Source: Pseudomonadota bacterium (GTDB taxonomy: Bacteria; Pseudomonadota; Gammaproteobacteria; Burkholderiales; Gallionellaceae). Taken from it: DNA of 64,000 nt. Numbering within the stretch: position 1 is the stretch's first letter; the number at the start of each line of letters is the position of its first letter. Location of the stretch: contig JAJZTF010000011.1 in the NCBI GenBank assembly GCA_021821945.1, positions 1-64,000 on the forward strand. The letters run 5' to 3'. The notes beneath the pieces are model-generated. The model was given only the letters and a program-made list of their open reading frames with translations, was not told the origin of the DNA and ran no database searches. The translations under genes were made by a program, and so were the position numbers. Below are positions 43,333 to 57,859 of this stretch, piece after piece.

Positions 43333-43545
43333 ATGGGTTCATTGAGCATCTGGCATTGGTTGATCGTACTGGTCGTGGTGATGATGGTGTTCGGCACCAA
43401 GAAGCTGCGCAACATAGGCAGCGACCTGGGCGGAGCGGTCAAGGGTTTCAAGGAGGGAATGGCGTCCGACGAGCCGCCCAAGCAGATCAAGGAAGAAGGA
43501 CAGACCATAGAGGGCGAGGTCAAGAGCAAGACGACGCACGGCTGA
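43333..43545 (+). CDS. tatA: Twin-arginine translocase subunit TatA
   Basis: This 70-residue protein has a short N-terminal TM helix ([19 protein letters not shown]), the [22 protein letters not shown] amphipathic helix and a charged tail. It builds the pore-forming part of the Tat pathway for folded proteins. Likely clients in the window include ActB1 (twin-Arg leader). It is the first of tatABC. Confidence 0.96.
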
Positions 43546-43926: not shown

Positions 43927-44681
43927 TGAGCGATTTGCTTCCGCGGGAAACCGAGCCGATGAGCACCAGCGAGAGCTTCATTGCCCACCTGATCGAATTG
44001 CGCAAGCGGTTGATGCGCTCGATGATTGCGCTGCTCGTGGTGTTCCTCGGCCTTTTTCACTGGGCGCCGAAACTTTATGCGCTCTTGGCCATGCCGCTTC
44101 TGGCGAAGCTCCCGAAAGGCGGGCAGATGATCGCGACCGATGTGACCACGCCTTTCTTCGTTCCGCTCAAGGTGGCGCTGATGGCGGCATTCCTGATCGC
44201 GCTTCCCTACATACTCTACCAGCTCTGGCGCTTCGTGGCCCCCGGCCTTTACGAACACGAGAAGAAGCTGGTTCTGCCGCTGATCTTCTCCAGCACGCTG
44301 CTCTTCTTCTGCGGCATGGGATTCGCCTATTTCATCGTGTTCCCCGTCGTGTTCGGCTTCATCACGTCATCGGCGCCCGCCGGCGTTGCGGTGATGACGG
44401 ACATAGACAAGTATCTGAGTTTCGTTTTAACCATGTTCATGGCCTTCGGCATCACCTTCCAGGTCCCGGTCGCCGTCGTTCTGCTGGTTCGCATGGGCGT
44501 GGTGAGCGTTGCGAAGCTGCGCGAGATCAGGCCTTACATCGTGGTTTGTTCCTTCGTTGTCGGGGCGATCTTCACGCCGCCCGACGTCGTATCCCAGATG
44601 ATGCTGGCGGTCCCGCTCTGGCTGCTTTACGAGGCCGGCATCATCGTTGCAAGCTGGACTCCGGTCAGAAATGAAGGCTGA
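43926..44681 (+). CDS. tatC: Twin-arginine translocase subunit TatC
   Basis: This 251-residue protein has six TM helices with the family motifs SFIAHLIELRKRLMRS (N-terminal Glu site), FFVPLKVALMAAFLIALPYILYQLWRFVAPGLYEHE and the late GVVSVAKLREIRPYIVV. It is the receptor for Tat signal peptides. It may begin at ATG 43962 (MSTSESFIAHL), but 43926 couples with tatB. Its end overlaps mscS by 11 bases. Confidence 0.96.
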   Translation: MSDLLPRETEPMSTSESFIAHLIELRKRLMRSMIALLVVFLGLFHWAPKLYALLAMPLLAKLPKGGQMIATDVTTPFFVPLKVALMAAFLIALPYILYQLWRFVAPGLYEHEKKLVLPLIFSSTLLFFCGMGFAYFIVFPVVFGFITSSAPAGVAVMTDIDKYLSFVLTMFMAFGITFQVPVAVVLLVRMGVVSVAKLREIRPYIVVCSFVVGAIFTPPDVVSQMMLAVPLWLLYEAGIIVASWTPVRNEG

Positions 44682-45927
44682 TGCCAATCTGATAGCCGAC
44701 CTCATCTCCCACGCGGAGGCGTCCAGTCTGCTCTGGCAGGTCGCGGCCATCCTCCTCGCGATGCTGATGGCCTGGCTGCTCGATGCGATCTTGAAGAAGC
44801 GGCTGGTCTCGGCTTCACAGAACATCGCGATCAAGAGCGTCAAGCGCATCACCTTTCCATTCCTCGCATTGCTTGGCGTTTTGATCGAGCGCGAGATCTT
44901 CACGAGGCTTGATCAGCCGGTCACGCTGCTCAAGCTTGCCATACCGCTTTTGCTGTCTCTGGCTGCGATACGCCTCACCGTCTATGTGCTGCACAAGGTG
45001 TTCCCGAATTCATCCAAGCTCAAGTCCTGGGAGATCGGTATCTCGGGCGTGATCTGGATTGCGCTTGCCCTCCATATCACGGGGCTTTTGAATGCCGTGC
45101 TGGATGCGATGGCGGGGGTGACATTCAGAATCGGACATCAGTCCGTTTCGCTTCTGGTCATGCTTCAGGGTATCCTGTCCATCGCGGTCACGGTGATCGC
45201 AGCACTCTGGCTCGGGAGATTCCTGGAGTCGCGCATCATGCGCATGGAGGAGATAGATGCCAGCTCGCGCGTACTTCTGACCAAGATCCTGCGCGGCACC
45301 CTTCTGGTGATCTCTGTGCTGGTTGCCTTGTCTCTGGTCGGCATAGACATCAGGGTTCTTTCGGTATTCGGCGGTGCACTGGGCGTGGGGCTGGGATTCG
45401 GCCTGCAGCGCATCGCGAGCAATTACATCTGCGGGTTCATCCTGCTGCTGGACAAGTCCATCCGCCTGGGCGATCTCATCACGCTTGACAGCCGATTCGG
45501 CACGGTCACAAGGCTGACCGGGCGCTACATGGTCCTGCGCGGGCTGGATGGGTCGGAGTCGCTGATACCGAATGAGACTGCGATCACATCGACGCTGATC
45601 AACCATTCCTTCTCGGACCGCAACATGAGCATCAAGATCAGCCTGCAGGTTGCCTACAGCAGCCCTCTGGATGTCGCGATGCAGATCATGCTGGATGCCG
45701 CCGCGGCGAACGAGCGGGTGCTTTCCGATCCCAAGCCCTCGGTGAATCTCATCGAGTTTGCAGACAGCGGAATCACGCTGGAACTGTCGGTCTGGATAGC
45801 CGATCCTGAAGCGGGCCAGATGGCATTGCGTTCACAGATAAATCTGGCCATCTGGCGCGAGTTTCAGCGCGCCAACATCGAGATACCGTTCCCTCAGCGC
45901 GAAGTGCGCATCCTCAACCCGACCTGA
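44671..45927 (+). CDS. MscS-family mechanosensitive ion channel
   Basis: This 418-residue inner-membrane protein has about five N-terminal TM helices before the conserved MscS pore and beta domain: RVLSVFGGALGVGLGFGLQRIASNYICGFILLLDKSIRLGD, then VTRLTGRYMVLRGLDGSESLIPNE. It is longer than E. coli MscS (286), like YnaI/YbdG-type members. It should open on membrane tension. I start at ATG 44671, inside the tatC end, rather than 44647. It is convergent with the protease gene, with a one-base gap. Confidence 0.9.
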   Translation: MKADANLIADLISHAEASSLLWQVAAILLAMLMAWLLDAILKKRLVSASQNIAIKSVKRITFPFLALLGVLIEREIFTRLDQPVTLLKLAIPLLLSLAAIRLTVYVLHKVFPNSSKLKSWEIGISGVIWIALALHITGLLNAVLDAMAGVTFRIGHQSVSLLVMLQGILSIAVTVIAALWLGRFLESRIMRMEEIDASSRVLLTKILRGTLLVISVLVALSLVGIDIRVLSVFGGALGVGLGFGLQRIASNYICGFILLLDKSIRLGDLITLDSRFGTVTRLTGRYMVLRGLDGSESLIPNETAITSTLINHSFSDRNMSIKISLQVAYSSPLDVAMQIMLDAAAANERVLSDPKPSVNLIEFADSGITLELSVWIADPEAGQMALRSQINLAIWREFQRANIEIPFPQREVRILNPT

Positions 45928-45928
45928 G

Positions 45929-47059
45929 TCACTGATCCGCCGGCCTCGGACGCTTGCCTATCTTCACGGGCAGCGAGAATTCCTTGCCGTTGCGCACCAG
46001 TTGGACGGGGACGATCTTGCCTGGAGCCAGATTGGCTATGGTGTCCAGCATCGTGCTCCAGTCGTTGATGGGCTTGCTGTCGATCGCGATCAGCTGGTCT
46101 CCGGGCCTGATGCCTGCCTGTTCTGCAGGGCTGTTCTGCAGAACTTCTGTGATCATCACGCCCTTTGCATTGCCGTCGCTGAAGGCGGCCGCATCGGGCG
46201 AGACCTCCTGGATTCCCGCGCCTATCCAGCCGCGCGTCACCGAGCCGTACTGCATGATCTGCTCCATGGTCTTCTTCGCCGTGGTGGCGGGGATCGCGAA
46301 GCCTATGCCGAGGGACCCGCCATTGGGGGAGTAGATCGCGCTGTTGATGCCGACCAGGTTGCCATTGGTGTCCACCAGCGCGCCGCCCGAATTGCCGGGA
46401 TTGATTGCGGCATCGGTCTGTATGAAGTTCTCGAAGGTGTTGAGGCCCAGATGATCGCGCTTCAGCGCACTGATGATGCCCATCGTGACGGTTTGTCCCA
46501 CGCCGAAAGGATTGCCTATCGCAAGCACGATGTCCCCCACATGCGCGTTCTCGGGATGGCCGAAGGTGATCGCGGGCAGGCTGCCCGGCAGGTCGATCTT
46601 GATCACGGCAAGATCTGTTTCCGGGTCGGAGCCCACCACATGGGCACGGGTCTTGCGGCCGTCCGCGAGCGCGACTTCGATCTGGTCGGCCGCCTCGACG
46701 ACATGGTGGTTCGTGAGGATGTAGCCGTCCGGGCTTACGATGACGCCGGATCCCAGGCTCGATCTCTTGCGGGGGGTGCTGTCGAGCTCCCCGAAGAAGA
46801 AACGGAAGCGCGGGTCATCCAGCGGCGTCTTGATGGTCGTGCTGGTGTAGATGTTGACGACGGAAGGCATGGCCTTACTTGCAGCGAGGCTCAGCCCCGT
46901 GAGCGGCGGGTTGACCGCGGGAGCCGTCGATTCGTAAAGGGTGATCACGCCGTTGCGCGCAGCGCTTGGCAGGAGTTCCGGCTTCAGTGTGTGGATCACG
47001 AACAGGACAGCCAGTGCAATGGTCACGGTTTGGGTGAATAATAGCCAGTGTTTTCGCAT
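45929..47059 (-). CDS. DegS/HtrA-like periplasmic serine protease (one PDZ)
   Basis: This 376-residue S1C protease has an N-terminal TM anchor (TVTIALAVLFVIHTL). The catalytic triad appears in LTNHHVVEA (His), DPETDLAVIKI (Asp) and INPGNSGGALVD (Ser), with one C-terminal PDZ (about 280-365). The single PDZ and anchor resemble DegS/AlgW, which start the envelope-stress sigma-E cascade. The regulated-release role is inferred; a general quality-control role is also possible. It lies between tatABC-mscS and the Nif3 gene, as HtrA-type genes often do in betaproteobacteria. Confidence 0.9.
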   Translation of the reverse strand: MRKHWLLFTQTVTIALAVLFVIHTLKPELLPSAARNGVITLYESTAPAVNPPLTGLSLAASKAMPSVVNIYTSTTIKTPLDDPRFRFFFGELDSTPRKRSSLGSGVIVSPDGYILTNHHVVEAADQIEVALADGRKTRAHVVGSDPETDLAVIKIDLPGSLPAITFGHPENAHVGDIVLAIGNPFGVGQTVTMGIISALKRDHLGLNTFENFIQTDAAINPGNSGGALVDTNGNLVGINSAIYSPNGGSLGIGFAIPATTAKKTMEQIMQYGSVTRGWIGAGIQEVSPDAAAFSDGNAKGVMITEVLQNSPAEQAGIRPGDQLIAIDSKPINDWSTMLDTIANLAPGKIVPVQLVRNGKEFSLPVKIGKRPRPADQ

Positions 47060-47084: not shown

Positions 47085-47831
47085 ATGAAGCTTTCAGAGC
47101 TGCGCGATTATAACGCAAGCCTTTTGCAAGCCGGGCAATTCAGGGATTACTGTCCGAACGGACTGCAGGTGGAGGGAAAATCCGAAGTGCTGAAGATCGC
47201 CACCGCGGTGACCGCGTCCCAGTCGGTGCTGGACCGGGCGATAGCATGGGGCGCGGATGCGATCCTCGTGCACCACGGTTATTTCTGGCGCAACGAGGAC
47301 ATGTGCATCACCGGCATCAAGAAGAGCCGCATCGCCGCGCTCATCAGGCACGAAGTCAGTCTGCTGGCCTACCACCTGCCGCTCGATGCGCATCCCGAGC
47401 TTGGAAACAATGCCGGATTGGGGAGGCTCTTGGCAATCAGGGAGACAGGGAGGTTCGGCGAGCAGAGCCTGATCTGCAAGGGAGTGCTGGAGTCCGAAAT
47501 GTCGCTTGCGCAGTTTTCTTCCGTGGTCGAATTCCGCCTCGAGAGAAGGCCTCTGGTCATAGGCGATCCTGAAAGCATCATACGCAACGTGGCGTGGTGC
47601 TCGGGCGGGGCCCAGGGCTATTTCGAGGCGTCCATCGCGGAGGGTGCGGATGTCTATCTGACCGGCGAGATCTCGGAGCAGAACTACCATGTTGCAAACG
47701 AGACCGGCGTGGCCTTCATCGCGGCAGGTCATCATGCCACGGAGCGCCTTGGAATCAGGGCGCTAGGCACGCATCTTGAACGCGAATTCGGGCTCGAACA
47801 CCGATTCTTCGATCAGGACAACCCGGTCTAG
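47085..47831 (+). CDS. Nif3-like dinuclear metal-centre protein
   Basis: This 248-residue protein of the Nif3/YbgI family (often annotated GTP cyclohydrolase I type 2 homologue) has CPNGLQVEGKSEVLKIATAVTAS, DAILVHHGYFWRN with metal-binding His residues, AYHLPLDAHPELGNNA and the late AAGHHATERLG. The cellular role is not firmly known. The start at 47085 has TAGGAG upstream. The stop lies in a CTAG palindrome shared with the stop of the gene on the other strand. Confidence 0.9.
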   Translation: MKLSELRDYNASLLQAGQFRDYCPNGLQVEGKSEVLKIATAVTASQSVLDRAIAWGADAILVHHGYFWRNEDMCITGIKKSRIAALIRHEVSLLAYHLPLDAHPELGNNAGLGRLLAIRETGRFGEQSLICKGVLESEMSLAQFSSVVEFRLERRPLVIGDPESIIRNVAWCSGGAQGYFEASIAEGADVYLTGEISEQNYHVANETGVAFIAAGHHATERLGIRALGTHLEREFGLEHRFFDQDNPV

Positions 47832-48397
47832 CCCAAAAGCGCGGTATTGGCGCCGCTGATGAGCTCGAGGAGTTCGTGTGCGTTGAAGACGGATTCAACC
47901 TTGCTGAAGAGGCTCTCGGGCTGCAGGGTCATGCCCAGCAGGAAATCCCTCTGCCTCGGATAAAGGTCTGTCCAGCGCCAGGCGATGAAATTCCGGTTTC
48001 CCCTGTATCCCTTCGCTTCCAGCGTTTTTTTCAGTTCCAGCACCTCCGGGATGGAAAGCTCGGCAGGTGTCGGGCTTTCCTGCCACATCAATCCCATGAA
48101 TATGCGCCACTTGCCGCCCATGTGCTGCTGTTCCAGCATCGGAAAGAGATAGTTGGGCCGAGGTTCCGTAGGCCTGAACCTGATCCCCGTCAGCATTTTT
48201 GGAAAATCCCGGTCTGCTATGGTTTCGGTCTTCCATCCCGGTATTCCAAGGGATGCGTCCATGCGCTTCTGGAACTCGCCCCAGAAGTTCGAGTTCATCT
48301 TTTCGCGCAAGGTGTCGACCTGCTGCGCCACCGACAAGGCCAGGGGCAGGTTTTCCGGTTTTGCAAAGAAATCCAGCACCGCTTTTTCTTCATCCAT
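47828..48397 (-). CDS. Hypothetical protein (189 aa)
   Basis: This 189-residue cytoplasmic protein has no signal or TM segment. It starts MDEEKAVLDFFAKPENLPLAL, has a Trp- and Phe-rich middle (FWGEFQKRM, GKWRIFMGLMWQES) and ends HELLELISGANTALLG. I recognise no family. The gene ends in the same CTAG as the Nif3 gene. An AGGAT-type RBS precedes its ATG, and 288 bases separate it from actA. A WRWTDLYPRQRDFLLGM segment near residue 140 might help a profile search. Confidence 0.72.
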   Translation of the reverse strand: MDEEKAVLDFFAKPENLPLALSVAQQVDTLREKMNSNFWGEFQKRMDASLGIPGWKTETIADRDFPKMLTGIRFRPTEPRPNYLFPMLEQQHMGGKWRIFMGLMWQESPTPAELSIPEVLELKKTLEAKGYRGNRNFIAWRWTDLYPRQRDFLLGMTLQPESLFSKVESVFNAHELLELISGANTALLG

Positions 48398-48535: not shown

Positions 48536-48685
48536 CCGCTCGCGACCGCTAATAACTTGATTTGCAGAGATAAAAAAATCGAGCAAATTTCGGCTGCTTA
48601 TATGCGCGTTGCACCTGACATTATCCGATTGAAAAATTTATTCATGCTGCAAAAAGGCATGAAGCTTGCCGGGGGAGTTCTCACG

Positions 48686-49402
48686 ATGCATCGTTATTTA
48701 CGTTTTCCTGCCATGTTGGCGGGTTTTCTGATGGCCGTTGCCTGCCATGCAGCGACCGAGCCGCTTACGACCGAGGATGCGCTGGGTCCGCAGATTCAGC
48801 AGCCCATCGAGTTTCCCCATTATCGCCATGCGGGCAACCGCAATCCGGTCGATCCGACAAACAGCGATCCGACCAAGGGTGGCATGGAAATCAACTGCCA
48901 ATATTGCCACACCTATGCGCGGCGCAGCCTGACGGCGGGAATACCGCCGCTGCAGAAGTGCATAGGCTGCCATCAGAACATTCCTTCCGTGCGCGACAAG
49001 CCGCGCATTGTCGAGCTGTTCAAGTATTGGGATGCGAAAAAGGCGATTCCCTGGAAAAAGGTTCACGACCTGCCTGATTTCGTGCGCTTCAACCACGAAC
49101 GGCACATCAAGCGCTTCATAGAGCAGCAGGGACGTCCGGTTCAGGAGGTGTGCGGCTATTGTCACGGGCAGGTGAAGGAGATGACGACCGCGCGCCGCCA
49201 GAAGCCCATCACCATGGGCTGGTGCGTCAGCTGCCACATGAAGGATCACGTCGTGGTGGCCAAGGGGGAAATACCGGAAGGCGGCACGCCGCTGGGCAAG
49301 CAGGATTACTGGTACACATTCCAGAAGCCCCAGGAAAAGAAAAATGCCGAGGGCGAGCTGACTGCCAAGGGTCCCAACGATTGCTGGCTCTGCCACAAGT
49401 GA
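48686..49402 (+). CDS. actA: Alternative complex III, pentahaem cytochrome subunit ActA
   Basis: This 238-residue protein has an N-terminal hydrophobic signal or anchor (FPAMLAGFLMAVACHA) and five CxxCH haem sites at Cys 71, 92, 156, 180 and 233 (CQYCH, CIGCH, CGYCH, CVSCH, CWLCH). The spacing and the HYRHAGNRNPVDPTN segment match the ActA subunit of ACIII, which passes electrons between the iron-sulfur subunit and periplasmic carriers. I start at 48686, after GGGGGAG; an upstream ATG at 48659 is less well placed. It is the first gene of the operon. Confidence 0.93.
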   Translation: MHRYLRFPAMLAGFLMAVACHAATEPLTTEDALGPQIQQPIEFPHYRHAGNRNPVDPTNSDPTKGGMEINCQYCHTYARRSLTAGIPPLQKCIGCHQNIPSVRDKPRIVELFKYWDAKKAIPWKKVHDLPDFVRFNHERHIKRFIEQQGRPVQEVCGYCHGQVKEMTTARRQKPITMGWCVSCHMKDHVVVAKGEIPEGGTPLGKQDYWYTFQKPQEKKNAEGELTAKGPNDCWLCHK

Positions 49403-49428
49403 TGAAAAAATTGAACAGAGAGGCTGTG

Positions 49429-51627
49429 ATGATAGACAGTGAATTTGATCGACGCGATTTTCTGAAGGTTTTGGGATGGGGTGGGGCTGCGGTTGCGCTT
49501 TCGGGCTGCGGCAATACCTCCATCGAGGACGGCAAGGAGACGGTGGTTTCCTATGTCCAGGCCAAGGACTATGTGATTCCGGGCGTTGCGGTATATTTCA
49601 ATTCGACATGCGCCCAGTGCGATGCGGGATGCAGCATCACCGGAAAGATACGCGAAGGCCGAGTGCTGAAGCTGGAGGGAAATCCTGAGTCGCCCATCAA
49701 CAGGGGCAAGCTTTGCGGGCTGGGCCAGGCAAGCGTGCAGCACCACTACAACCCGGACCGCGTGCGCGAGCCATTGCTGCGCAAAGGCGACAAGGGTGAG
49801 ACGATCAGCTGGGAAAAGGCCTATGGGCTGATCAACGAGAAGCTTGCCGGCGTGAAGGGCGATGAAATCGCCTTCCTCACGGGCGAGATGAGCGGTCACC
49901 AGAAGGTGCTGCTGGGCAACTACATGGACAGTCTGGGCAGCGGAAATCACTTCGTATATGAGGCGGTGGCGCCTGCGGTCGTGCGTGCGGCCAATCTCAA
50001 GGCATATGGCGTCGAGATGCCGCGCTACCGCATCGACAAGGCCAAGGTGATGCTGTCTTTCGGTGCGGACTTTCTCGGCACATGGGTTTCTCCCGTGCAT
50101 TTCGCCCAGCAGTATGCGGCCTTCCGCAAGGGGGTGGACGGACAGCGCGGTGTCCTGATACAGGCCGAATCCAAGATGACGCTGACCGGTGCCAATGCGG
50201 ATCGCTGGCTTGCTGTCCGTCCAGGCACGGAAGGCATACTGGCGCTTGGCATCATCAATGCGCTGGGAATCGCCACGGGCGACGTGGCCGAGCTCGTCAA
50301 GGATTACGACAAGGCGAGGGTCAGCCGGGATACCGGTGTCGAGCCCAGCCACATAGACAAGATCGCGGCAATTCTGAGATTGCGCAGCCCGAGCCTCGTG
50401 TTGGCCGGAAGCGCTGCCGAAGGGTATGTGCACGGCATGCAGAATGCGGAGGCGATCAATCTTCTGAATCATGTGCTGGGCAATGTCGGGAAGACGATAG
50501 AGGCTCCGGTGTCCGTGCCCTTCCCGCAGCTTGCGCCATCCAAGGGAAGCACCGCATCGCTCAAGAAGCTCAACGACGATCTTGCATCGGGCAAATACAA
50601 GGTGCTCTTCAGCATCGCGACCAATCCCGTATTCACCGCGCCTGCCTCCTACAAATTTGGCGACAACATGGCAAAGGCGGGATTCAAGGTCGCGTTCGCG
50701 CATTATCTCGACGAGACCGCCCTGCAGGCGGATCTCGTTCTGCCTCTCGATTCGGAGATGGAGGACTGGGGAACCCATGTTCCGGAGTATCTGGCGGATG
50801 CCGCGCAGATCAACATCCAGCAGCCCCTGATGGAAAGGCTGCATGCGAATACGCGGGGCATGGGCGATATCCTGCTCGCACTCGTCAAGCAGCGCAAGCC
50901 TGAGGAGTACAAGGCGTTCGACGACTACTACGGCTTTCTGCGCTTTGCGATGCTGCAGAACAAGAACGCCCTGGGCGGGGCGGAAAAGGACGACGACAAC
51001 TTCTGGAACGACACGCTCTCGAATGGCATCGTCAAGCTTTCGCCAGCTTCGGGCGCATTGTCCGCAAAAGCCGATGTGGGCGGGATCAAATTGCCCGCTC
51101 CAAAGGAGGCGGACAAGCAGTATCCGCTGCGCCTGATCGCCTCCGTCACCTCGAACCTGCGGGACGGACGTCACACCAATCAGCCCTGGATACAGGAATC
51201 CCCCGATCCGCTGACCACGATAGTCTGGGATTCCTGGGTCGAGATACATCCGAAGAAGGCTGCGGAACTCGGCGTCGTCGAGGGGGACATCGTGAAAGTG
51301 ACGTCCAGGACGGGTTCGATCAGCGCCCAGGTCTATCTTTTCCCCGGCATACATCCGGAGGCGGTCTCCATCCCCATCGGCCGCGGACATGAGGCGATGG
51401 GAAGATATGCCAAGGGCTATGGCGTCAATCCTTTCAGCATCATGGATGCCGTTTTCGAGCGCGAAACGGGGGAGCTTGCGATGCACGAGACGAACGTGAA
51501 CATCGCCAAGACCGGTCAGCGCGTCATCGTCGTCAAGGATGAGGGCCCCGTGGGCGGTAAGCAGATGGGAAGAAGGGTCGCCGTGAGCAGATCCACCGAT
51601 CAAGTCGATTTGTCAAAGGAGGTTTGA
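49429..51627 (+). CDS. actB1: Alternative complex III, molybdopterin-oxidoreductase-like subunit ActB1
   Basis: This 732-residue protein has a twin-arginine leader (FDRRDFLKVLGWGG) and a lipobox-like ALSGC. It has the molybdopterin-enzyme fold, with an intact N-terminal iron-sulfur motif: C61-x2-C64-x3-C68 and C96. Later parts include PGTEGILALGIINALG and the C-terminal SIPIGRGHEAMGRYAKGYG. In ACIII this domain is thought not to bind molybdenum. In many ACIII operons B1 and B2 are one gene; here they are two. It may begin at 49402 (overlapping actA), but 49429 has GAGAGG upstream and puts RR near the start. Confidence 0.9.
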   Translation: MIDSEFDRRDFLKVLGWGGAAVALSGCGNTSIEDGKETVVSYVQAKDYVIPGVAVYFNSTCAQCDAGCSITGKIREGRVLKLEGNPESPINRGKLCGLGQASVQHHYNPDRVREPLLRKGDKGETISWEKAYGLINEKLAGVKGDEIAFLTGEMSGHQKVLLGNYMDSLGSGNHFVYEAVAPAVVRAANLKAYGVEMPRYRIDKAKVMLSFGADFLGTWVSPVHFAQQYAAFRKGVDGQRGVLIQAESKMTLTGANADRWLAVRPGTEGILALGIINALGIATGDVAELVKDYDKARVSRDTGVEPSHIDKIAAILRLRSPSLVLAGSAAEGYVHGMQNAEAINLLNHVLGNVGKTIEAPVSVPFPQLAPSKGSTASLKKLNDDLASGKYKVLFSIATNPVFTAPASYKFGDNMAKAGFKVAFAHYLDETALQADLVLPLDSEMEDWGTHVPEYLADAAQINIQQPLMERLHANTRGMGDILLALVKQRKPEEYKAFDDYYGFLRFAMLQNKNALGGAEKDDDNFWNDTLSNGIVKLSPASGALSAKADVGGIKLPAPKEADKQYPLRLIASVTSNLRDGRHTNQPWIQESPDPLTTIVWDSWVEIHPKKAAELGVVEGDIVKVTSRTGSISAQVYLFPGIHPEAVSIPIGRGHEAMGRYAKGYGVNPFSIMDAVFERETGELAMHETNVNIAKTGQRVIVVKDEGPVGGKQMGRRVAVSRSTDQVDLSKEV

Positions 51628-51630
51628 GTC

Positions 51631-52485
51631 ATGTCAGTCACCAATTTGCTGGATAACTGGGCTGCGGTCCGCCATTTTCATCCTATCGATGACAAGCCGC
51701 ACGATCCCTACAAGTGGGCGATGGCGATAGATCTGGATGCATGCATAGGCTGCAACGCATGCGCCGTGGCGTGTTATGCGGAAAACAATCTGCCCGTCGT
51801 GGGGCGCGAGAAGTTCCAGCATGGCCAGGTGATGCACTGGATGCGCATCGAGCGCTACTGGAACGAGGACGACAGGGAGTTCCCGGATCAGGGAGCGGAA
51901 TTCATGCCCATGATGTGCCAGCAGTGCGAGGCGGCGCCATGCGAAACCGTCTGTCCTGTGGGCGCGACCAATCACACCCAGGATGGCCTGAATTCCCAGA
52001 TTTACAACCGCTGCATAGGATCGCGCTACTGTTCTGCGAACTGTCCGTACAAGGTCCGTTACTTCAACTGGTATGACTATCCTACGACGGACAATGTCTG
52101 GCCTGCCGAGATGAATTACCAGCTGAATCCGGACGTGACCGTGCGCGGCAAGGGCGTGATGGAGAAATGCACCTTCTGCGTGCAGAGGCTTCGTGCGGCA
52201 GAGGTCACGGCCAAGGGCGAAGGGCGCATCGTGCGCGAGGGGGAGGTACAGACGGCCTGTCAGCAGTCCTGCCCGACCAACGCGATCTCCTTCGGCAATC
52301 TGGTCGATCCTGAGTCGCGGGTGCACAAGCAGTGGAAGGCGCAGCAGGTGGATCTTGCGAAGGACGAGCAGGAAAAGGACAAGCAGGAGGGCGGCTCGGA
52401 TTTGCGCGGCTACCGGATCTTCGAAGACCTGCGCGCCTATCCTTCGGTGATGTACCTGGAGCGCGTGCGCGAGAGCGCTGTTTAG
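51631..52485 (+). CDS. actB2: Alternative complex III, iron-sulfur subunit ActB2
   Basis: This 284-residue ferredoxin-type protein carries four cysteine clusters: CIGCNACAVAC; CQQCEAAPCETVCP; CIGSRYCSANCP; and CTFCVQR with a later CQQSCP. In the third group one of the usual cysteines is replaced by Ser/Arg context (CIGSRYC), as in related three-cluster-plus-[3Fe-4S] proteins. It links quinone sites in ActC/ActF to the haems of ActA. It has no signal peptide of its own and would be exported with ActB1 through Tat. AAGGAGG is nine bases before the ATG, three bases after actB1. Confidence 0.93.
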   Translation: MSVTNLLDNWAAVRHFHPIDDKPHDPYKWAMAIDLDACIGCNACAVACYAENNLPVVGREKFQHGQVMHWMRIERYWNEDDREFPDQGAEFMPMMCQQCEAAPCETVCPVGATNHTQDGLNSQIYNRCIGSRYCSANCPYKVRYFNWYDYPTTDNVWPAEMNYQLNPDVTVRGKGVMEKCTFCVQRLRAAEVTAKGEGRIVREGEVQTACQQSCPTNAISFGNLVDPESRVHKQWKAQQVDLAKDEQEKDKQEGGSDLRGYRIFEDLRAYPSVMYLERVRESAV

Positions 52486-52510
52486 CCGGCTGAACATTTA
52501 AGGAACGACA

Positions 52511-53890
52511 ATGAAAGATATCCGCGAAGACATTGCCTGGGCCAAGATCAACCAGGACGTGATGAAGAGTCTGGAAAACCCGAGGCCGCTGTATTGGGTG
52601 ATCCTGTTTTTTGCCGTGCTGACTTTCGGCATAGGCATAGGCTGCGAGGTCTACCAGTACCAGATGGGCATGGGGGTGGCGAATCTCGACAATCCTCATG
52701 TATGGGGGCTTTACATCGCCACCTTCATCTTCTGGATCGGCATGAGCCATTCAGGCACGCTGCTGTCCGCCATCCTGCATCTGATGCATGCCGACTGGCG
52801 AAAGCCGATATACCGTTTCGCCGAGGCGATGACGACTTTCTCGCTGATGACGGCGGGCCTATTCGTGATGGTCCATCTGGGGCGTCTCTGGCAGTTCTAT
52901 TACGCGGTTCCCTATCCCAACGAGCGCTGGGTCTGGCCCAACTTCCAGTCGCCCCTCCTCTGGGATGCGATGGCGATCTTCACCTATCTGAGCTCCTCCG
53001 TACTCTTCCTGTTCGTCGGCATGATCCCGGATCTTGCGATCGCGCGCGACAACATGCACTCCGGATGGCGCAAGAAGCTCTATACGCTTCTGGCGCTGGG
53101 CTGGGAGGGTACCGACAGGCAGTGGCGCAATTTCCGCGTGACCTATCTGACCATCGCCTGTTTCCTGATTCCCCTTGCCGTATCGGTGCACTCCATCGTG
53201 GCATCCGACTTCGGCATGTCGCAGCAGCCGGGCTGGCATGTGACCTCGTTCCCGCCCTACTTCGTCGCGGGCGCGCTTTATTCGGGATGCGCTGCGATCA
53301 TCACGCTCTTCATCATCCTGCGCTACGTGTTCAAGTTCGAGGACTACATGACGCTGCCGATACTGAAAAAGATCGTGAGGCTGACTTTCGCGATCGCGAT
53401 GGTGTGGACCTATCTCAACTGCGTCGAATTCGCATCCGTATGGTATAGCCACGATGCCGTCTCCAAGGATCTGCTGATACAGAAGATGACGGGGCCATAC
53501 GCGCCATTCTGGTGGGCGATGATCTTCTGCGGCTCCATCGTGCCGCTGGTCTTCGCGATCAAGCGCTTCCAGACCAACATCCCCGTGCTCTTCGCGACCT
53601 CGCTTTTGCTGAACCTCGGCATGTGGCTGGAGCGCTGGATGATCGTGTCGCCCACGTTCTCCCATGGCTACTATCCATGGACCTGGGATCACGATCAGTG
53701 GCCCTCGATGATACAGTGGGGCATCGTGTTCGGCAGCTTCGGCTGGTTCACGCTGCTATTCATGGTGTTCTGCAAGATGTTCCCCTCGGTTTCCATGTAC
53801 GAGGTCAAGGAGATGGTTTACCACCGCACGCTGCATCTGAAAAATAACGGAACTGCCGTTGAACAAACCGTTGAGCAAGGAGTTCACTAA
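52511..53890 (+). CDS. actC: Alternative complex III, NrfD-like membrane subunit ActC
   Basis: This 459-residue integral protein of the NrfD/PsrC family has about ten TM helices. It begins with a cytoplasmic tail ending NPRPLYWVILFFAVLTFGIGIG and includes FWIGMSHSGTLLSAILHLM and MVHLGRLWQFYYAVPYPNERW. NrfD-like subunits hold quinone sites. ActC is the main quinone-reactive membrane subunit of ACIII. It follows actB2 by 25 bases with AAGGAACG upstream. Confidence 0.94.
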   Translation: MKDIREDIAWAKINQDVMKSLENPRPLYWVILFFAVLTFGIGIGCEVYQYQMGMGVANLDNPHVWGLYIATFIFWIGMSHSGTLLSAILHLMHADWRKPIYRFAEAMTTFSLMTAGLFVMVHLGRLWQFYYAVPYPNERWVWPNFQSPLLWDAMAIFTYLSSSVLFLFVGMIPDLAIARDNMHSGWRKKLYTLLALGWEGTDRQWRNFRVTYLTIACFLIPLAVSVHSIVASDFGMSQQPGWHVTSFPPYFVAGALYSGCAAIITLFIILRYVFKFEDYMTLPILKKIVRLTFAIAMVWTYLNCVEFASVWYSHDAVSKDLLIQKMTGPYAPFWWAMIFCGSIVPLVFAIKRFQTNIPVLFATSLLLNLGMWLERWMIVSPTFSHGYYPWTWDHDQWPSMIQWGIVFGSFGWFTLLFMVFCKMFPSVSMYEVKEMVYHRTLHLKNNGTAVEQTVEQGVH

Positions 53891-53892
53891 TC

Positions 53893-54423
53893 ATGAGCAA
53901 ACGTCACTTACTCGCCTTGTATGGCGACTTTGATCAGGCGGAGGCGGTCGTCAAGGAGCTTCGCAACACCAAGATTTCGGGCTTCGATGTCAACGATGAC
54001 ATGATCGTCAAGTCGCCTATCGAGCATCCGGAAGTCGAGAAGTTTCTCGGTGAAAAGCCCGTCTACGTGCAGTGGTTCACGCTGATAGGCGCGGTGCTCG
54101 GAGGATCCCTGGGGTTTCTCGGCATCTCGAGCGCGCAGGCCAATTTCTTCATGCAGATGAAGGGGGGAAAGCCCATCGTGCCTCTGCCGCCCAATTTCGT
54201 GCTGACCTACGAGCTTTTCATCCTGGGCGGCGTGTACATCACGGTGCTTGGCTTTCTGATCTGCTCGGCATTGCCGGCCAAGCGTTCCCCGCTATACAAC
54301 GCCAAGGTCTCGGTCGACAACATCGGCATACTGGTCAAGGCGGAAGAGGCGGCAGTCGGCGCATTGAAGGCGATCTTTGCCAAGCACAAGGCGTTGGAAA
54401 TTCAGGAAGAGGCTGGGAAATGA
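53893..54423 (+). CDS. actD: Alternative complex III, subunit ActD (DUF3341)
   Basis: This 176-residue protein has the DUF3341 pattern: YGDFDQAEAVVKELRN at the N-terminus, YVQWFTLIGAVLGGSLGF as first TM, a second TM GGVYITVLGFLICSAL, and SVDNIGILVKAEE near the C-terminus. It is a two-helix membrane subunit of ACIII of unknown mechanism. It starts two bases after the actC stop and overlaps actE. Confidence 0.93.
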   Translation: MSKRHLLALYGDFDQAEAVVKELRNTKISGFDVNDDMIVKSPIEHPEVEKFLGEKPVYVQWFTLIGAVLGGSLGFLGISSAQANFFMQMKGGKPIVPLPPNFVLTYELFILGGVYITVLGFLICSALPAKRSPLYNAKVSVDNIGILVKAEEAAVGALKAIFAKHKALEIQEEAGK

Positions 54424-54977
54424 TGAAAAGAACATCCTTGTTGGTCACTCTGTTGTTGATGCCGGCTCTCGCGCAGGCCTGGCCCTGGTCCAGGGACATG
54501 GCAAACCAGATCAGCATCAAGCCCCAGGAAAGTCCGGATCCTGCACATCCTGGCATGTACCCCTTTCCCTCGCGTTCCGTGCCGGTGCCCGGCACCACCG
54601 TGCTGGTGGAGGATCTTGAGGCGGCGAAGAAGATGGTCAATCCGGTGGTTCCCGATGCGCAGTCGGTGCAGAAGGGCAAGCATCTGTTCGAGATCTACTG
54701 CACGCCATGCCACGGATTCAAGGGATACGGCGACGGGCTGGTCGGGAAGAAGCTGATCATGCAGCCTTTCAACCTTTCCTATACCAACACCATGCACAGC
54801 TGGAAGTCGCCCGACTATCCGGACGGATATATTTTCGGCTACATGACGCTGGGAGGGGCAGTGATGCCAAGCTATGCGAACGATCTTTCTCCGACCGAAC
54901 GCTGGAACGTGGTGAACTACGTGCGCAAGGTCTTGCAGAAGGCGCCTCCCGGTTATGTGGCGCCGCAGTCGAATTGA
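54420..54977 (+). CDS. actE: Alternative complex III, monohaem cytochrome subunit ActE
   Basis: This 185-residue protein has a signal peptide (LLVTLLLMPALAQA-WPWS) and one haem site CTPCH followed by GFKGYGDGLVGKK. The distal Met is probably in GAVMPSYAN. The GMYPFPSRSVPVPGT segment is typical of ActE. It takes or gives electrons next to ActA. ATG ATG overlaps the actD stop, so either codon (54420 or 54423) may start it. Confidence 0.92.
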   Translation: MMKRTSLLVTLLLMPALAQAWPWSRDMANQISIKPQESPDPAHPGMYPFPSRSVPVPGTTVLVEDLEAAKKMVNPVVPDAQSVQKGKHLFEIYCTPCHGFKGYGDGLVGKKLIMQPFNLSYTNTMHSWKSPDYPDGYIFGYMTLGGAVMPSYANDLSPTERWNVVNYVRKVLQKAPPGYVAPQSN

Positions 54978-54989
54978 GGAGGATAGGAA

Positions 54990-56003
54990 ATGTTGACATA
55001 TACCAATTGGTCGGTTCTCACGGTAAGCTTCGTCGTCGTGTTGTCCCTGGCATTGAGCGGCGTGGCATTCTGCTCGGTGCTGCATCTGGTGGGCGCAAAA
55101 TGGCGCTATAACGTGCGCAATCTTGCGGTGTCGCTCTATGCGCTGTTTCCCCTTGCGGCCGTATTGCTCGTGATCCTGCTGGCCGGCGGAGAGCACACCT
55201 TCCCGTGGTGGAACCGGCCGGTCAACTCGGACTTCCACATGCCCGGCTGGTATCAGCCCTACTGGCTGATGTCGCGCGAAGTGGTGGGCATGATATTCAT
55301 GATGGCGCTCTATTGGGTGTTCATCCAGCGCCAGGCGGAAAGCGACAAGGGCCCCAAGGAATATGCGAGCTTCCACCGGGTCGCAACCTGGATTCCATTC
55401 TTCTTCGTGCTCTACAGCACGATGATCGCGTGGGATTTCGAGATGACGCTGGTGCCGGAATGGCACAGCGCGATCTACGGGATGCAGCAGTTCGTCAGCA
55501 ATTTCGGCATGTTCCTGGCATTTCTCGTGATCTGGATATATGTCCTGAACACGAAGAACAAGCTGGTTTCGCCCGTACCCGAAAAGATTTATAATTACAT
55601 CGCGCAGATGCTGCTGGCTTTCACCCTGCTGTATATATATACTTATTACGCACAATTCCTGACCATCTGGTATGGCAATCTGCCCGACGAGACGGATCGT
55701 GTGTTTGGCATGATGTATGGCGACTATGCCTTCGTCTGGTGGGCCGTGCTGGCACTGAAATTTGTCATACCATTCGTGGCGCTTTGTTTTCCGGTGACGC
55801 GGCACAGCATTGCCGGAATCACCGCTGTTGCCACGTCCATCATCATAGGCACGATCTGCGAGCGCTTCATCTGGATCGCCGGCGTAAATGGCACCGGCAG
55901 TTATCCGGTGCTCGCTGCGGCCTTGGTATGGGGAATTGTTGCGCTGGTGGGATTTTTCCTTGTGCGGGCTTTCATGCAGAGCAGAAATTTGATTAAGGGG
56001 TAA
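54990..56003 (+). CDS. actF: Alternative complex III, second NrfD-like membrane subunit ActF
   Basis: This 337-residue protein has about nine to ten TM helices and starts YTNWSVLTVSFVVVLSLALSG. It has WWNRPVNSDFHMPGWYQPYWL and RQAESDKGPKEYASFHRV, and ends VGFFLVRAFMQSRNLIKG. It is the shorter NrfD-like partner of ActC in ACIII. GAGGAGG lies ahead of the ATG. It ends seven bases before sspA, so sspAB may be read from the same transcript. I saw no ActG gene. Confidence 0.92.
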   Translation: MLTYTNWSVLTVSFVVVLSLALSGVAFCSVLHLVGAKWRYNVRNLAVSLYALFPLAAVLLVILLAGGEHTFPWWNRPVNSDFHMPGWYQPYWLMSREVVGMIFMMALYWVFIQRQAESDKGPKEYASFHRVATWIPFFFVLYSTMIAWDFEMTLVPEWHSAIYGMQQFVSNFGMFLAFLVIWIYVLNTKNKLVSPVPEKIYNYIAQMLLAFTLLYIYTYYAQFLTIWYGNLPDETDRVFGMMYGDYAFVWWAVLALKFVIPFVALCFPVTRHSIAGITAVATSIIIGTICERFIWIAGVNGTGSYPVLAAALVWGIVALVGFFLVRAFMQSRNLIKG

Positions 56004-56010
56004 GAGCGTA

Positions 56011-56607
56011 ATGATGAGATTGTATTCGGGGACGGTTTGCCCCTACAGCCATCGGTGTCGTATCGTTTTGTACGAAAAGGGCATGGATTTCGAGATTATC
56101 GATGTGGACCAGATGGACAAGTCCGAAGATGTCGCGGCGATCAATCCGTACAACAAAGTCCCTGTTCTGGTAGAGCGCGACCTGATTCTGACCGAGGCAA
56201 ACATCATCAACGAATACATAGACGAGCGTTTCCCTCATCCCCAGCTGATGCCCGCCGATCCTGTGATGCGCGGGCGCGCCAGGCTTTTCCTGCACCGCTT
56301 CGAGCAGGAGCTCTACAGCAACGTGAATCTCATCCAGCAGGGCGGCAAGACGCCCGAGAAGGCCCGGGCCATCATCAAGGACAACCTTCTGCAGCTCTCG
56401 CAGATACTGTCGAAGCAGAAGTACCTTCTGGGGAACGAGTTTTCCATGCTGGACGTGGCGGTCGCCCCCCTGCTGTGGCGGCTCGACCATTATGGCATAC
56501 AGATGGGCAAGGATGCCGCTCCCCTGATGAAGTATGCGGAGAGGCTGTTTGCGCGGCAGGGCTTCATCGATTCCCTGACACCTGCGGAAAGAGCGATGCG
56601 CAAGTGA
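56011..56607 (+). CDS. sspA: Stringent starvation protein A
   Basis: This 198-residue GST-fold protein begins RLYSGTVCPYSHRCRIVLYEKGMDFEIIDVD, with NPYNKVPVLVERDLIL and NIINEYIDERFPHPQLMP. SspA binds RNA polymerase during starvation rather than acting as a transferase. It is overlapped by sspB. In betaproteobacteria this pair commonly follows petABC; here it follows actF by seven bases. Confidence 0.95.
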   Translation: MMRLYSGTVCPYSHRCRIVLYEKGMDFEIIDVDQMDKSEDVAAINPYNKVPVLVERDLILTEANIINEYIDERFPHPQLMPADPVMRGRARLFLHRFEQELYSNVNLIQQGGKTPEKARAIIKDNLLQLSQILSKQKYLLGNEFSMLDVAVAPLLWRLDHYGIQMGKDAAPLMKYAERLFARQGFIDSLTPAERAMRK

Positions 56608-56981
56608 ACGACCTGTCCACCAGACCCTATCTGATACGCGCGATATACGAATGGTGCATAGACGGAGGGCATACGCCCTACCTTGCGGTGCGGGTCAACG
56701 AGCAGACGGAAGTGCCCGCGTCGTACGTCAAGGATGGGGAGATCGTGCTGAACGTCAGCCCGACAGCGGTCCGCGGACTGGAGATGGGCAATGAGTGGAT
56801 ATCCTTCAGCGGCCGGTTTGGCGGCGTTTCCTTCGACATCCTGGTGCCGGTGGGTGCCGTGATCGGGATTTTCTCGAAAGAGACGGGGCAGGGTCTTGTG
56901 TTTCAGCCTGCCGATTCCGCACCTGAGCCTACACCACCGGAAACAAAGCCGGCCAAGCCGCAGTTGAAGCTGATCAAATGA
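56604..56981 (+). CDS. sspB: ClpXP protease specificity-enhancing factor SspB
   Basis: This 125-residue protein starts at GTG inside the sspA end (four-base overlap). It has STRPYLIRAIYEWCIDGGHTPYL, IVLNVSPTAVRGLEMGNEWISFSGRFGG and a flexible Pro-rich tail ending KPQLKLIK, the ClpX-docking tail. It delivers ssrA-tagged proteins to ClpXP. A terminator follows at once. Confidence 0.95.
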   Translation: MNDLSTRPYLIRAIYEWCIDGGHTPYLAVRVNEQTEVPASYVKDGEIVLNVSPTAVRGLEMGNEWISFSGRFGGVSFDILVPVGAVIGIFSKETGQGLVFQPADSAPEPTPPETKPAKPQLKLIK

Positions 56982-57010: not shown

Positions 57011-57859
57011 TCAGGCTGCCGAGAGGGCGGCGTGCATCTTGCTCATCGCCTTCTGTTCTATCTGGCGTATGCGCTCGGCCGACACGTTGAATTCGGCGGC
57101 AAGTTCATGCAGCGTCGCGCTGCTGTCCTCGTTCAGCCAGCGCGCCTCCACGATGCGCCTGCTGCGTTCGTCCAGGCTGGACAAGGCCTTGGACAGCCCT
57201 GCGCTGCGCAGGTGGTCGTTTTCCGAAGTCTCGAGCACATTCGACGGCTCATGCTCTGGGCTGTCGGCAAGATACTGTATCGGCGCGTAATCCTCGTCAT
57301 CGCCGGATCCCGAAGGCTCGAGCCCCATCTCATGCCCTGCAAATCTCGCCTCCATTTCGGCGACATCCTGCTCGCTCACGTTGAGCTGTGCGGCGATTTC
57401 CTTGATCTGCTGCGGCTTCAGCGATTCCAGGTCGCGCTTCAGGCTGCGCAGGTTGAAGAAAAGCTTGCGCTGCGCCTTGGTGGTGGCAATCTTGACCAGA
57501 CGCCAGTTGCGCACGACGAATTCGTTGATTTCCGCGCGTATCCAGTGAACCGCAAAGGAAACAAGGCGCACGCCGAAGTCGGGGTCGTAATGCTTGACCG
57601 CCTTCATCAGGCCGATATTGCCTTCCTGGATCAAATCCGCCTGGGGAAGGCCGTAGCCGGCATAGCCTCTCGCAACGCTGACGACCACGCGCAAATGGGA
57701 AAGGACCAGCTGGCGCGCGGCGTCGAGATCGTTCTCGTCGCGGAAGCGCACGGCGAGGGCGTGTTCCTCTTCCGGCGACAGCACGGCATAGCGTTTGACC
57801 TGGCTGATGTAGCTGTCAAGACTGCCTAAGGCAGAAGGCATGGGAAGGCTGTAATCCAT
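57011..57859 (-). CDS. rpoH: RNA polymerase heat-shock sigma factor (sigma-32)
   Basis: This 282-residue group 3 sigma factor has region 2 (LIQEGNIGLMKAVKHYDPDFGVRLVSFAVHWIRAEINEF), the RpoH box TKAQRKLFFNLRSLK and region 4 (LDERSRRIVEARWL; LAAEFNVSAERIRQIEQKAMSKM). It directs heat-shock gene transcription. The length and the RpoH box separate it from RpoD and RpoS. It is transcribed towards sspB. Confidence 0.96.
   Translation of the reverse strand: MDYSLPMPSALGSLDSYISQVKRYAVLSPEEEHALAVRFRDENDLDAARQLVLSHLRVVVSVARGYAGYGLPQADLIQEGNIGLMKAVKHYDPDFGVRLVSFAVHWIRAEINEFVVRNWRLVKIATTKAQRKLFFNLRSLKRDLESLKPQQIKEIAAQLNVSEQDVAEMEARFAGHEMGLEPSGSGDDEDYAPIQYLADSPEHEPSNVLETSENDHLRSAGLSKALSSLDERSRRIVEARWLNEDSSATLHELAAEFNVSAERIRQIEQKAMSKMHAALSAA

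Follow-up and report, generated by a model that had tools for sequence, protein, structure and literature searches.

The genes for alternative complex III (ACIII) in a genome of the Gallionellaceae lie between nif3 and sspA, and the question raised by this locus is whether they stand in a place that belonged to cytochrome bc1 (petABC). Both complexes carry electrons between quinone and cytochrome c. The preliminary description of the stretch of DNA analysed here (64,000 nucleotides, hereafter the window) proposed that ACIII had replaced bc1 at this position in an in-place swap. Our analysis indicates that the nif3-sspA stretch is very probably a slot for complex III, in which bc1 and ACIII have repeatedly been exchanged in place within the family.

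The gene order in the window, read from its open reading frames and Pfam matches, is his-HIT-tatABC-mscS-degQ-nif3-orfX-actAB1B2CDEF-sspAB. This bears out the order described before, in which the minus-strand orfX went unmentioned. Upstream, Pfam matches cover a HisC-like aminotransferase, HisB, H, A, F, I and E, HIT, a TatA/B-type protein, TatC and MscS, while a TatA-like ORF of 70 aa (43333-43545) was identified by eye. The mscS gene (44647-45927; Pfam MscS) lies between tatC and degQ, a placement seen only in part of genus g1 (G062, G065, G068, G083 and G119 among the loci fetched). The upstream flank continues with a DegS/DegQ-like protease gene (45929..47059, minus strand; Pfam Trypsin_2 and PDZ) and with nif3 (47085..47831, plus strand; Pfam DUF34_NIF3), the left edge of the slot, since DNA similarity between loci in different states reaches its stop codon. 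Between nif3 and actA lies orfX (47828..48397, minus strand), which encodes 189 aa and is convergent with nif3, overlapping it by 4 bases. All act genes are on the plus strand. They comprise actA (48686..49402), for a multihaem cytochrome c with five CxxCH motifs by eye (Pfam Cytochrome_C7, on the longer ORF); actB1 (49402..51627), for a molybdopterin-oxidoreductase-like subunit with a twin-arginine signal predicted by a TAT signal model (Pfam Molybdopterin, on the longer ORF; PDB 6lod_B, E 7e-49); actB2 (51631..52485), for an iron-sulphur subunit (Pfam Fer4 families); actC (52511..53890), for an NrfD-like membrane subunit (Pfam NrfD; PDB 6lod_C, E 4e-97); actD (53893..54423; Pfam ActD, E 2e-33); actE (54423..54977), for a monohaem cytochrome c with one CxxCH by eye (Pfam Cytochrome_CBB3, on a longer ORF in the same frame); and actF (54990..56003), for a second NrfD-like membrane subunit (no Pfam match; PDB 8k9e_F, E 2.5e-16), the gene having left a scar of its 3' end in some relatives. 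The right edge of the slot is sspA (56011..56607, plus strand; Pfam GST_N), followed by sspB (56604..56981, plus strand; Pfam SspB, on the longer ORF) and, as downstream flank, a gene for an RpoH-like sigma factor (57011..57859, minus strand; Pfam Sigma70 regions 1.2, 2 and 4). The seven bases reported between actF and sspA stand (actF stop at 56003, sspA ATG at 56011). Start sites needed revision, actA beginning more likely at 48686 than at 48557 and actB1 being read from 49402, overlapping the actA stop. A scan for promoters and terminators gave fewer matches than in shuffled sequences.

Judged by its predicted subunit set, the act cluster is an ACIII. The pentahaem ActA adjoins an ActB with molybdopterin-like and Fe-S parts, two NrfD-like membrane subunits are present, with ActC and ActF matching the C and F chains of solved ACIII, and ActD is accompanied by the monohaem ActE. 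The nearest solved chains come from 6lod, 8k9e, 6f0k and 6btm. Qrc menaquinone reductase was rejected as an alternative, all matches falling below the NCBIfam equivalog cut-offs (QrcB 276/440, QrcC 228/400, QrcA 50/180 and QrcD 11/570 bits). Subunit set and order, including the split actB, are as given for Ferriphaselus and other iron oxidisers, and the presence of ACIII, its split actB and its transfer are already published in the parts of that study available to us (PMC4643136). The window copy differs in standing in the bc1 slot before sspAB and in its family-only companion orfX. A second, divergent ActD match, possibly belonging to a second ACIII, was found in a single-contig genome of genus g2 (G069, C1:2005331-2005831), ~1 Mb from the first.

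Across the order, the slot belongs to bc1. Our sample of 250 genomes, 7 of them from the window's family, contained SspB in 240, cytochrome b in 231 and ActD in 18 (4 of these in the family). Among the best matches listed, 147 sspB places and 144 petB places were typed outside the family, with both in 93 genomes; in 91 of these 93, which span 34 families, petB and sspB share a strand, with petB 2.38-2.97 kb upstream, and the other two have petB and sspB on different contigs. Similarly, in a scan for SspA among named genomes, limited to the best 80 of 585 loci, pet genes were found upstream of sspA in 62 of the 66 loci L016-L081, which include three family members (L017, L019 and L029); they were absent from L019, L029, L030 and L038. 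Because petABC stands beside sspAB throughout the order, bc1 is the likely ancestral occupant of the slot. The preliminary description had given the segment, for many betaproteobacteria, as running from his, HIT and tatABC to petABC-sspAB, and its view of the place as a bc1 slot is supported. A second bc1-ACIII neighbourhood was observed in G361 (family f20; L168, 3081-13999), where a different petABC, with a PLWY motif, lies directly upstream of actA-F and away from sspB.

Within the Gallionellaceae we analysed 150 genomes, most of them MAGs and some incomplete, with 82 ActD matches (those in G086 and G017 being remnants below the cut-off), 123 for cytochrome b and 141 for SspB. Genes for bc1 were divided into class B (native) and class A (other) by a bit-score threshold of 236, with assignments tree-checked for the rows fetched. 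When coordinates were joined, ACIII was found at sspB in 74 of the 80 ACIII-bearing genomes, with ActD on the strand of sspB and 1.5-4.5 kb upstream of it. This fixed place argues that the arrangement is not due to chance. The 74 include three genomes with bc1 further upstream (G126, G138 and G129) as well as G053 (8% contamination), which has both complexes on different contigs. The other states were native-class petB alone (37 genomes), the other bc1 class alone (one, G074), neither (29) and no SspB (9); G106, with two sspB genes, was excluded from state counts. Genera g1, g2, g13 and g15 each hold both main states, which read tatC-degQ-nif3-petABC-sspAB-rpoH and tatC-degQ-nif3-orfX-actA..F-sspAB-rpoH. 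Thus, the same slot in relatives holds the displaced genes. Some loci lack the upstream genes owing to contig ends, the limit of the fetched stretch or rearrangement (g9, G048, G077, G059 and G094). In genus g8 (L144, L146, L152 and L154) the slot is empty, with 150-161 bases between nif3 and sspA; within this genus, G032 carries ACIII elsewhere and G017 an ActD remnant.

The borders of the exchange are sharp at sspA and less clean after nif3. Across the 40 fetched family ACIII loci that extend to sspA, actF and sspA are without exception separated by -1 to 9 bases, compared with 117-149 bases between petC and sspA in 18 of 19 native-bc1 loci, so the downstream link to sspAB was tightened rather than kept, as had been supposed. 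Six pairs of loci in different states are 72-91% identical in DNA as far as the stop codon of nif3 and again from the start codon of sspA onward, except for two nif3 pieces of 250 bases (66 and 68%). Immediately in front of sspA hardly anything aligns in these pairs (46 bases at 63% in G013/G029 being the exception), whereas two control pairs of like state agree there over 60 bases, at 98% and 82%. After nif3, the mixed pair G050/G001 matches at 81% over 118 bases, and the same-state pair G069/G050 shows no match.

In an RpoB/RpoC tree of 46 genomes (14 of the 60 requested gave no rpoC match), the two slot states are interleaved. Trees of the upstream flank (TatC, DegQ, Nif3) and of the downstream flank (SspA, SspB, RpoH; without a g13 row) group mostly by genus, g2 forming one branch in both (support 87). 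The AU test rejects a single clade of all bc1-state rows (p 6e-5 downstream, p 4e-54 upstream) and of all ACIII-state rows (p 6e-43 and p 3e-49, respectively). At least 6 changes of state are needed on the species tree and at least 7 on each of the downstream and upstream trees (37, 43 and 39 labelled rows, respectively; G106 omitted). In the tree of native petABC, the test rejects a g2 clade (p 1.6e-5) and a g1 clade that includes G129 (p 0.009); the petABC of this genome groups with a g15 row (87/76) and not with its g1 kin. Without G129, a g1 clade passes the test (p 0.32), and a g15 clade is a borderline case (p 0.056). As the petABC tree contradicts the genera while the flanks follow them, petABC has moved between genera, most clearly in G016 (g2). 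Vertical flanks around a cassette that is not vertical, as expected of displacement, are therefore seen for native petABC, with moderate support for the genus branches. ACIII itself mostly follows genera, with G005 (g6) and G003 (g4) misplaced, and the family's copies cluster together (100), separate from the seven copies included from outside. Most of these trees are quick searches with weak inner branches. In in situ gene displacement, including mosaic operons, foreign genes replace resident ones and leave the flanks intact. The locus studied here is alike in that the place of resident genes has been taken by foreign ones between intact flanks, and differs in that unrelated complexes of seven and three genes appear to swap repeatedly, with tandems and remnants.

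Tandem arrangements occur in three genomes, with native-class petABC followed by orfX-ACIII-sspAB in G129 and mrp-petABC of the other class followed by orfX-ACIII-sspAB in G126 and G138. The preliminary description had associated petABC upstream of actA in close relatives with a simple insertion of ACIII. The arrangement thus exists, but the petABC of G126 and G138 is of the other class and comes with mrp, and that of G129 falls outside its own genus, so these are not simply old bc1 operons with ACIII inserted beside them. In G074, mrp-petABC is followed by sspAB with a degraded actF in between; in the species tree the neighbour of this genome is G126 (88; a tree without G138), and in the bc1 tree it clusters with both G126 and G138 (99).

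Similar scars of actF were found in other genomes. We aligned the 160 bases before sspA to actF ends, with 66 control loci giving a maximum score of 27. Remnants scored 33 in G049, 39 in G074, 51 in G004 (g5), and 60, 74 and 76 in G034, G019 and G027 (all g12), with longer 3' ends of actF in the latter four. In G049, native-class petABC is followed by the final bases of actF before sspA, a short remnant of 19 aligned bases. These remnants in six genomes indicate that ACIII was once in the slot and has left it in at least four genera, and twice, in G049 and G074, bc1 now holds the slot after ACIII left. In G027, ACIII is still present ~27 kb away on the same contig. A one-off swap is rejected in view of these scars and of the number of state changes; the exchange has been recurrent and partly reversed. 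Two genomes scoring just above the control maximum (G022, 31; G110, 29) were left uncounted, as were possible remnants in g8 (G007) and g14 (G014) that look right by eye and score within the control range. In G014 (L145), a polynucleotide-phosphorylase-like ORF, recognised by eye, lies right before sspA, with the sequence resembling the actF stop and spacer in between. No actF remnant above control level was found in 18 of 19 native-bc1 loci, whose history could run in either direction. Nor was any petABC remnant found in ACIII loci; the first swap, from bc1 to ACIII, is therefore deduced from the distribution of the two states. Matches of ActE near petC and of PetC near actE are short stretches within haem proteins and were dismissed as chance.

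The replacement of bc1 holds for the slot but not for the genome. The single cytochrome b match in the window genome lies on contig C21 within a complete petA-petB-petC adjoining an mrp-like gene, so bc1 was not lost in favour of ACIII. This bc1 is of the PEWY type, not the native PVWY type, and the window genome is thus in the ACIII state with, as a second complex, a bc1 of foreign type elsewhere. Such a pairing is common. Among the 80 ACIII genomes, 53 have class A bc1 only, 2 have class B, 1 has both and 24 have none (12 of these 24 being at least 99% complete), whereas the 70 genomes without ACIII have class B in 52, class A in 7 and none in 11. The displaced genes are therefore gone from nearly all genomes in the ACIII state, native-class bc1 being present in only 3 of 80. 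PetB of the family's native type shares 71% identity with its counterparts in other Betaproteobacteria, and on average 49% with the ACIII-associated PetB. At the Qo site, 16/16 rows of the ACIII-associated type (two of them from f37) read PEWY and 19/19 native rows PVWY, with PVWY in 56 and PLWY in 3 of 59 other rows. The Rieske motif is GSxY in 16/16 ACIII-associated rows and GSRF in 18/19 native ones, with F in 53, Y in 3 and no match in 2 of 58 other rows. A tyrosine in the Rieske motif raises its potential. For the Qo site, the glutamate of PEWY has been suggested to take a proton, according to the part of the source available to us (PMC8361435). Class A petABC groups with f37, in which 5/6 genomes also have ActD. 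In a quick tree, the PEWY-type bc1 (L171-L181) groups across genera, G044 (g1) with G050 (g2) and G012 (g1) with g9 rows, and this type may itself be mobile too.

The companion gene orfX was found in the Gallionellaceae only and tracks ACIII. A profile built from 28 sequences found it in 78 of 150 family genomes, that is, in 75 of 80 with ACIII versus 3 of 70 without (Fisher p 1.6e-32, kinship uncorrected). In 50 of the 75, orfX and actD are no more than 12 kb apart; in 22 they occupy different contigs, some perhaps through breaks in the assembly, and in the other 3 (G003, G058 and G067) they share a contig but are far from each other. The gene is thus retained even without linkage. It is broken in G052 and G144. 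Outside the family, orfX was not found in 30 genomes of the order, 14 of which have ActD, nor in the remaining 368 among 369 genomes of the class, for which up to 8 candidates per genome were scored. OrfX has no Pfam match above cut-off and no NCBIfam match; its predicted structure is confident (pLDDT 92), and a fold search of the PDB gave no match with E of 0.001 or less. Because orfX overlaps nif3, orfX-like matches in bc1-state loci were read as antisense of the 3' end of nif3, and were not counted.

Could the pattern have arisen without exchange between lineages? If petABC and ACIII had stood side by side in the ancestor of the family and each lineage had kept one of them, tandem forms would be expected, and three exist, together with the loss of ACIII beside bc1 in G074, the general agreement of the ACIII tree with genera, and the lack of firm nesting of other genera's petABC within g1. 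We nevertheless consider this rather unlikely, since loss from a pet-act-ssp order should leave the act side at sspA and almost all native-bc1 loci scored carry no actF remnant above control level, and since the petABC of g2 is split while its flanks are not and the petABC of G129 sides with g15. That ACIII entered a hot spot beside sspA several times from outside is very improbable. Its transfer between Beta- and Zetaproteobacterial iron oxidisers has been suggested, in the portion of the study seen (PMC4643136), but a single actF-sspA junction is common to every family locus measured, the family's ACIII is one branch apart from the outside copies, and sspA is missing from the ACIII stretches retrieved for f37, f42 and f20. 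An artefact of assembly or binning that mixed two organisms can hardly be credited: G053, G036 (6% contamination) and G106 do look mixed, yet single-contig genomes show both ACIII (G013, G050, G057, G058, G067, G069 and G083) and native-type bc1 (G040), and in G049 and G074 the remnant and the present occupant share a contig.

Exchange may also have occurred without consequence, ACIII and bc1 being interchangeable here and shuffled neutrally, a reading that is possible but doubtful. The same genera hold both states, and ACIII has been treated as a possible substitute for bc1, as far as the source could be consulted (PMC3770913). Against this stand the rarity of native-class bc1 in ACIII genomes, the frequency of the other class in them (54/80; PEWY wherever rows were read) and the prevalence of the native class where ACIII is lacking. 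Furthermore, in Sideroxydans ES-1 growing on Fe(II), ACIII genes rise strongly, though bc1 genes rise as well, moderately (PMC8788666). The same publication assigns ACIII to reverse electron transport.

Under repeated in-place exchange, our preferred reading, the slot would ancestrally have been held by the native betaproteobacterial bc1 operon. A cassette of orfX-actA-B1-B2-C-D-E-F would then have taken it in the Gallionellaceae, in a presumed first swap from bc1 to ACIII, and become joined to sspA by one shared junction. Thereafter the slot very probably changed hands repeatedly, with native-type petABC holding it in some lineages; in one line a different bc1 arrived next door and ACIII then decayed, and elsewhere the slot was emptied. 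Meanwhile, the flanking genes descended with the genus as native petABC moved between genera. Exchange could have proceeded through recombination in the flanks, or through insertion next door followed by deletion. ACIII probably does the work of complex III here, perhaps running backwards, and sspAB may be co-transcribed with act. The ACIII state with a PEWY-type bc1 would suit chains in which electrons enter at the level of cytochrome c and part of them go uphill. As a tentative proposal, the slot may be an exchange site for complex III under control shared with sspAB, where selection retains a single machine joining quinone and cytochrome c. The ACIII state would then be a package, made up of orfX and ACIII and in most cases a PEWY-type bc1 at another locus, that adjusts the step between quinone and cytochrome c to uphill electron flow from Fe(II) or nitrite; orfX would serve ACIII as a dedicated partner.

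Parts of this picture are consistent with published work, each source having been available to us in part. Sideroxydans ES-1 has ACIII and bc1 while Gallionella ES-2 has ACIII and no bc1, ACIII being proposed as a stand-in, and the portion seen of this comparison makes no mention of a shared slot (PMC3770913). Within the family, ACIII and bc1 each have a patchy distribution (PMC10734462); ACIII is also present in Nitrotoga genomes (PMC9239080). In a literature search of partial coverage (ACIII, Gallionella, bc1 and sspA), we found no publication on a slot shared by bc1 and ACIII, none linking ACIII with stringent starvation protein and none linking PEWY with PVWY.

Complex III is central to respiration, and its recurrent in-place replacement by an unrelated complex provides a natural series on the exchange of a core energy complex, one that also bears on what each version of the complex is for. 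OrfX offers a specific candidate for a factor dedicated to ACIII. The linked change in bc1, from PVWY to PEWY and from F to Y in the Rieske motif, makes uphill versus downhill electron flow in iron oxidisers testable through comparison of close relatives.
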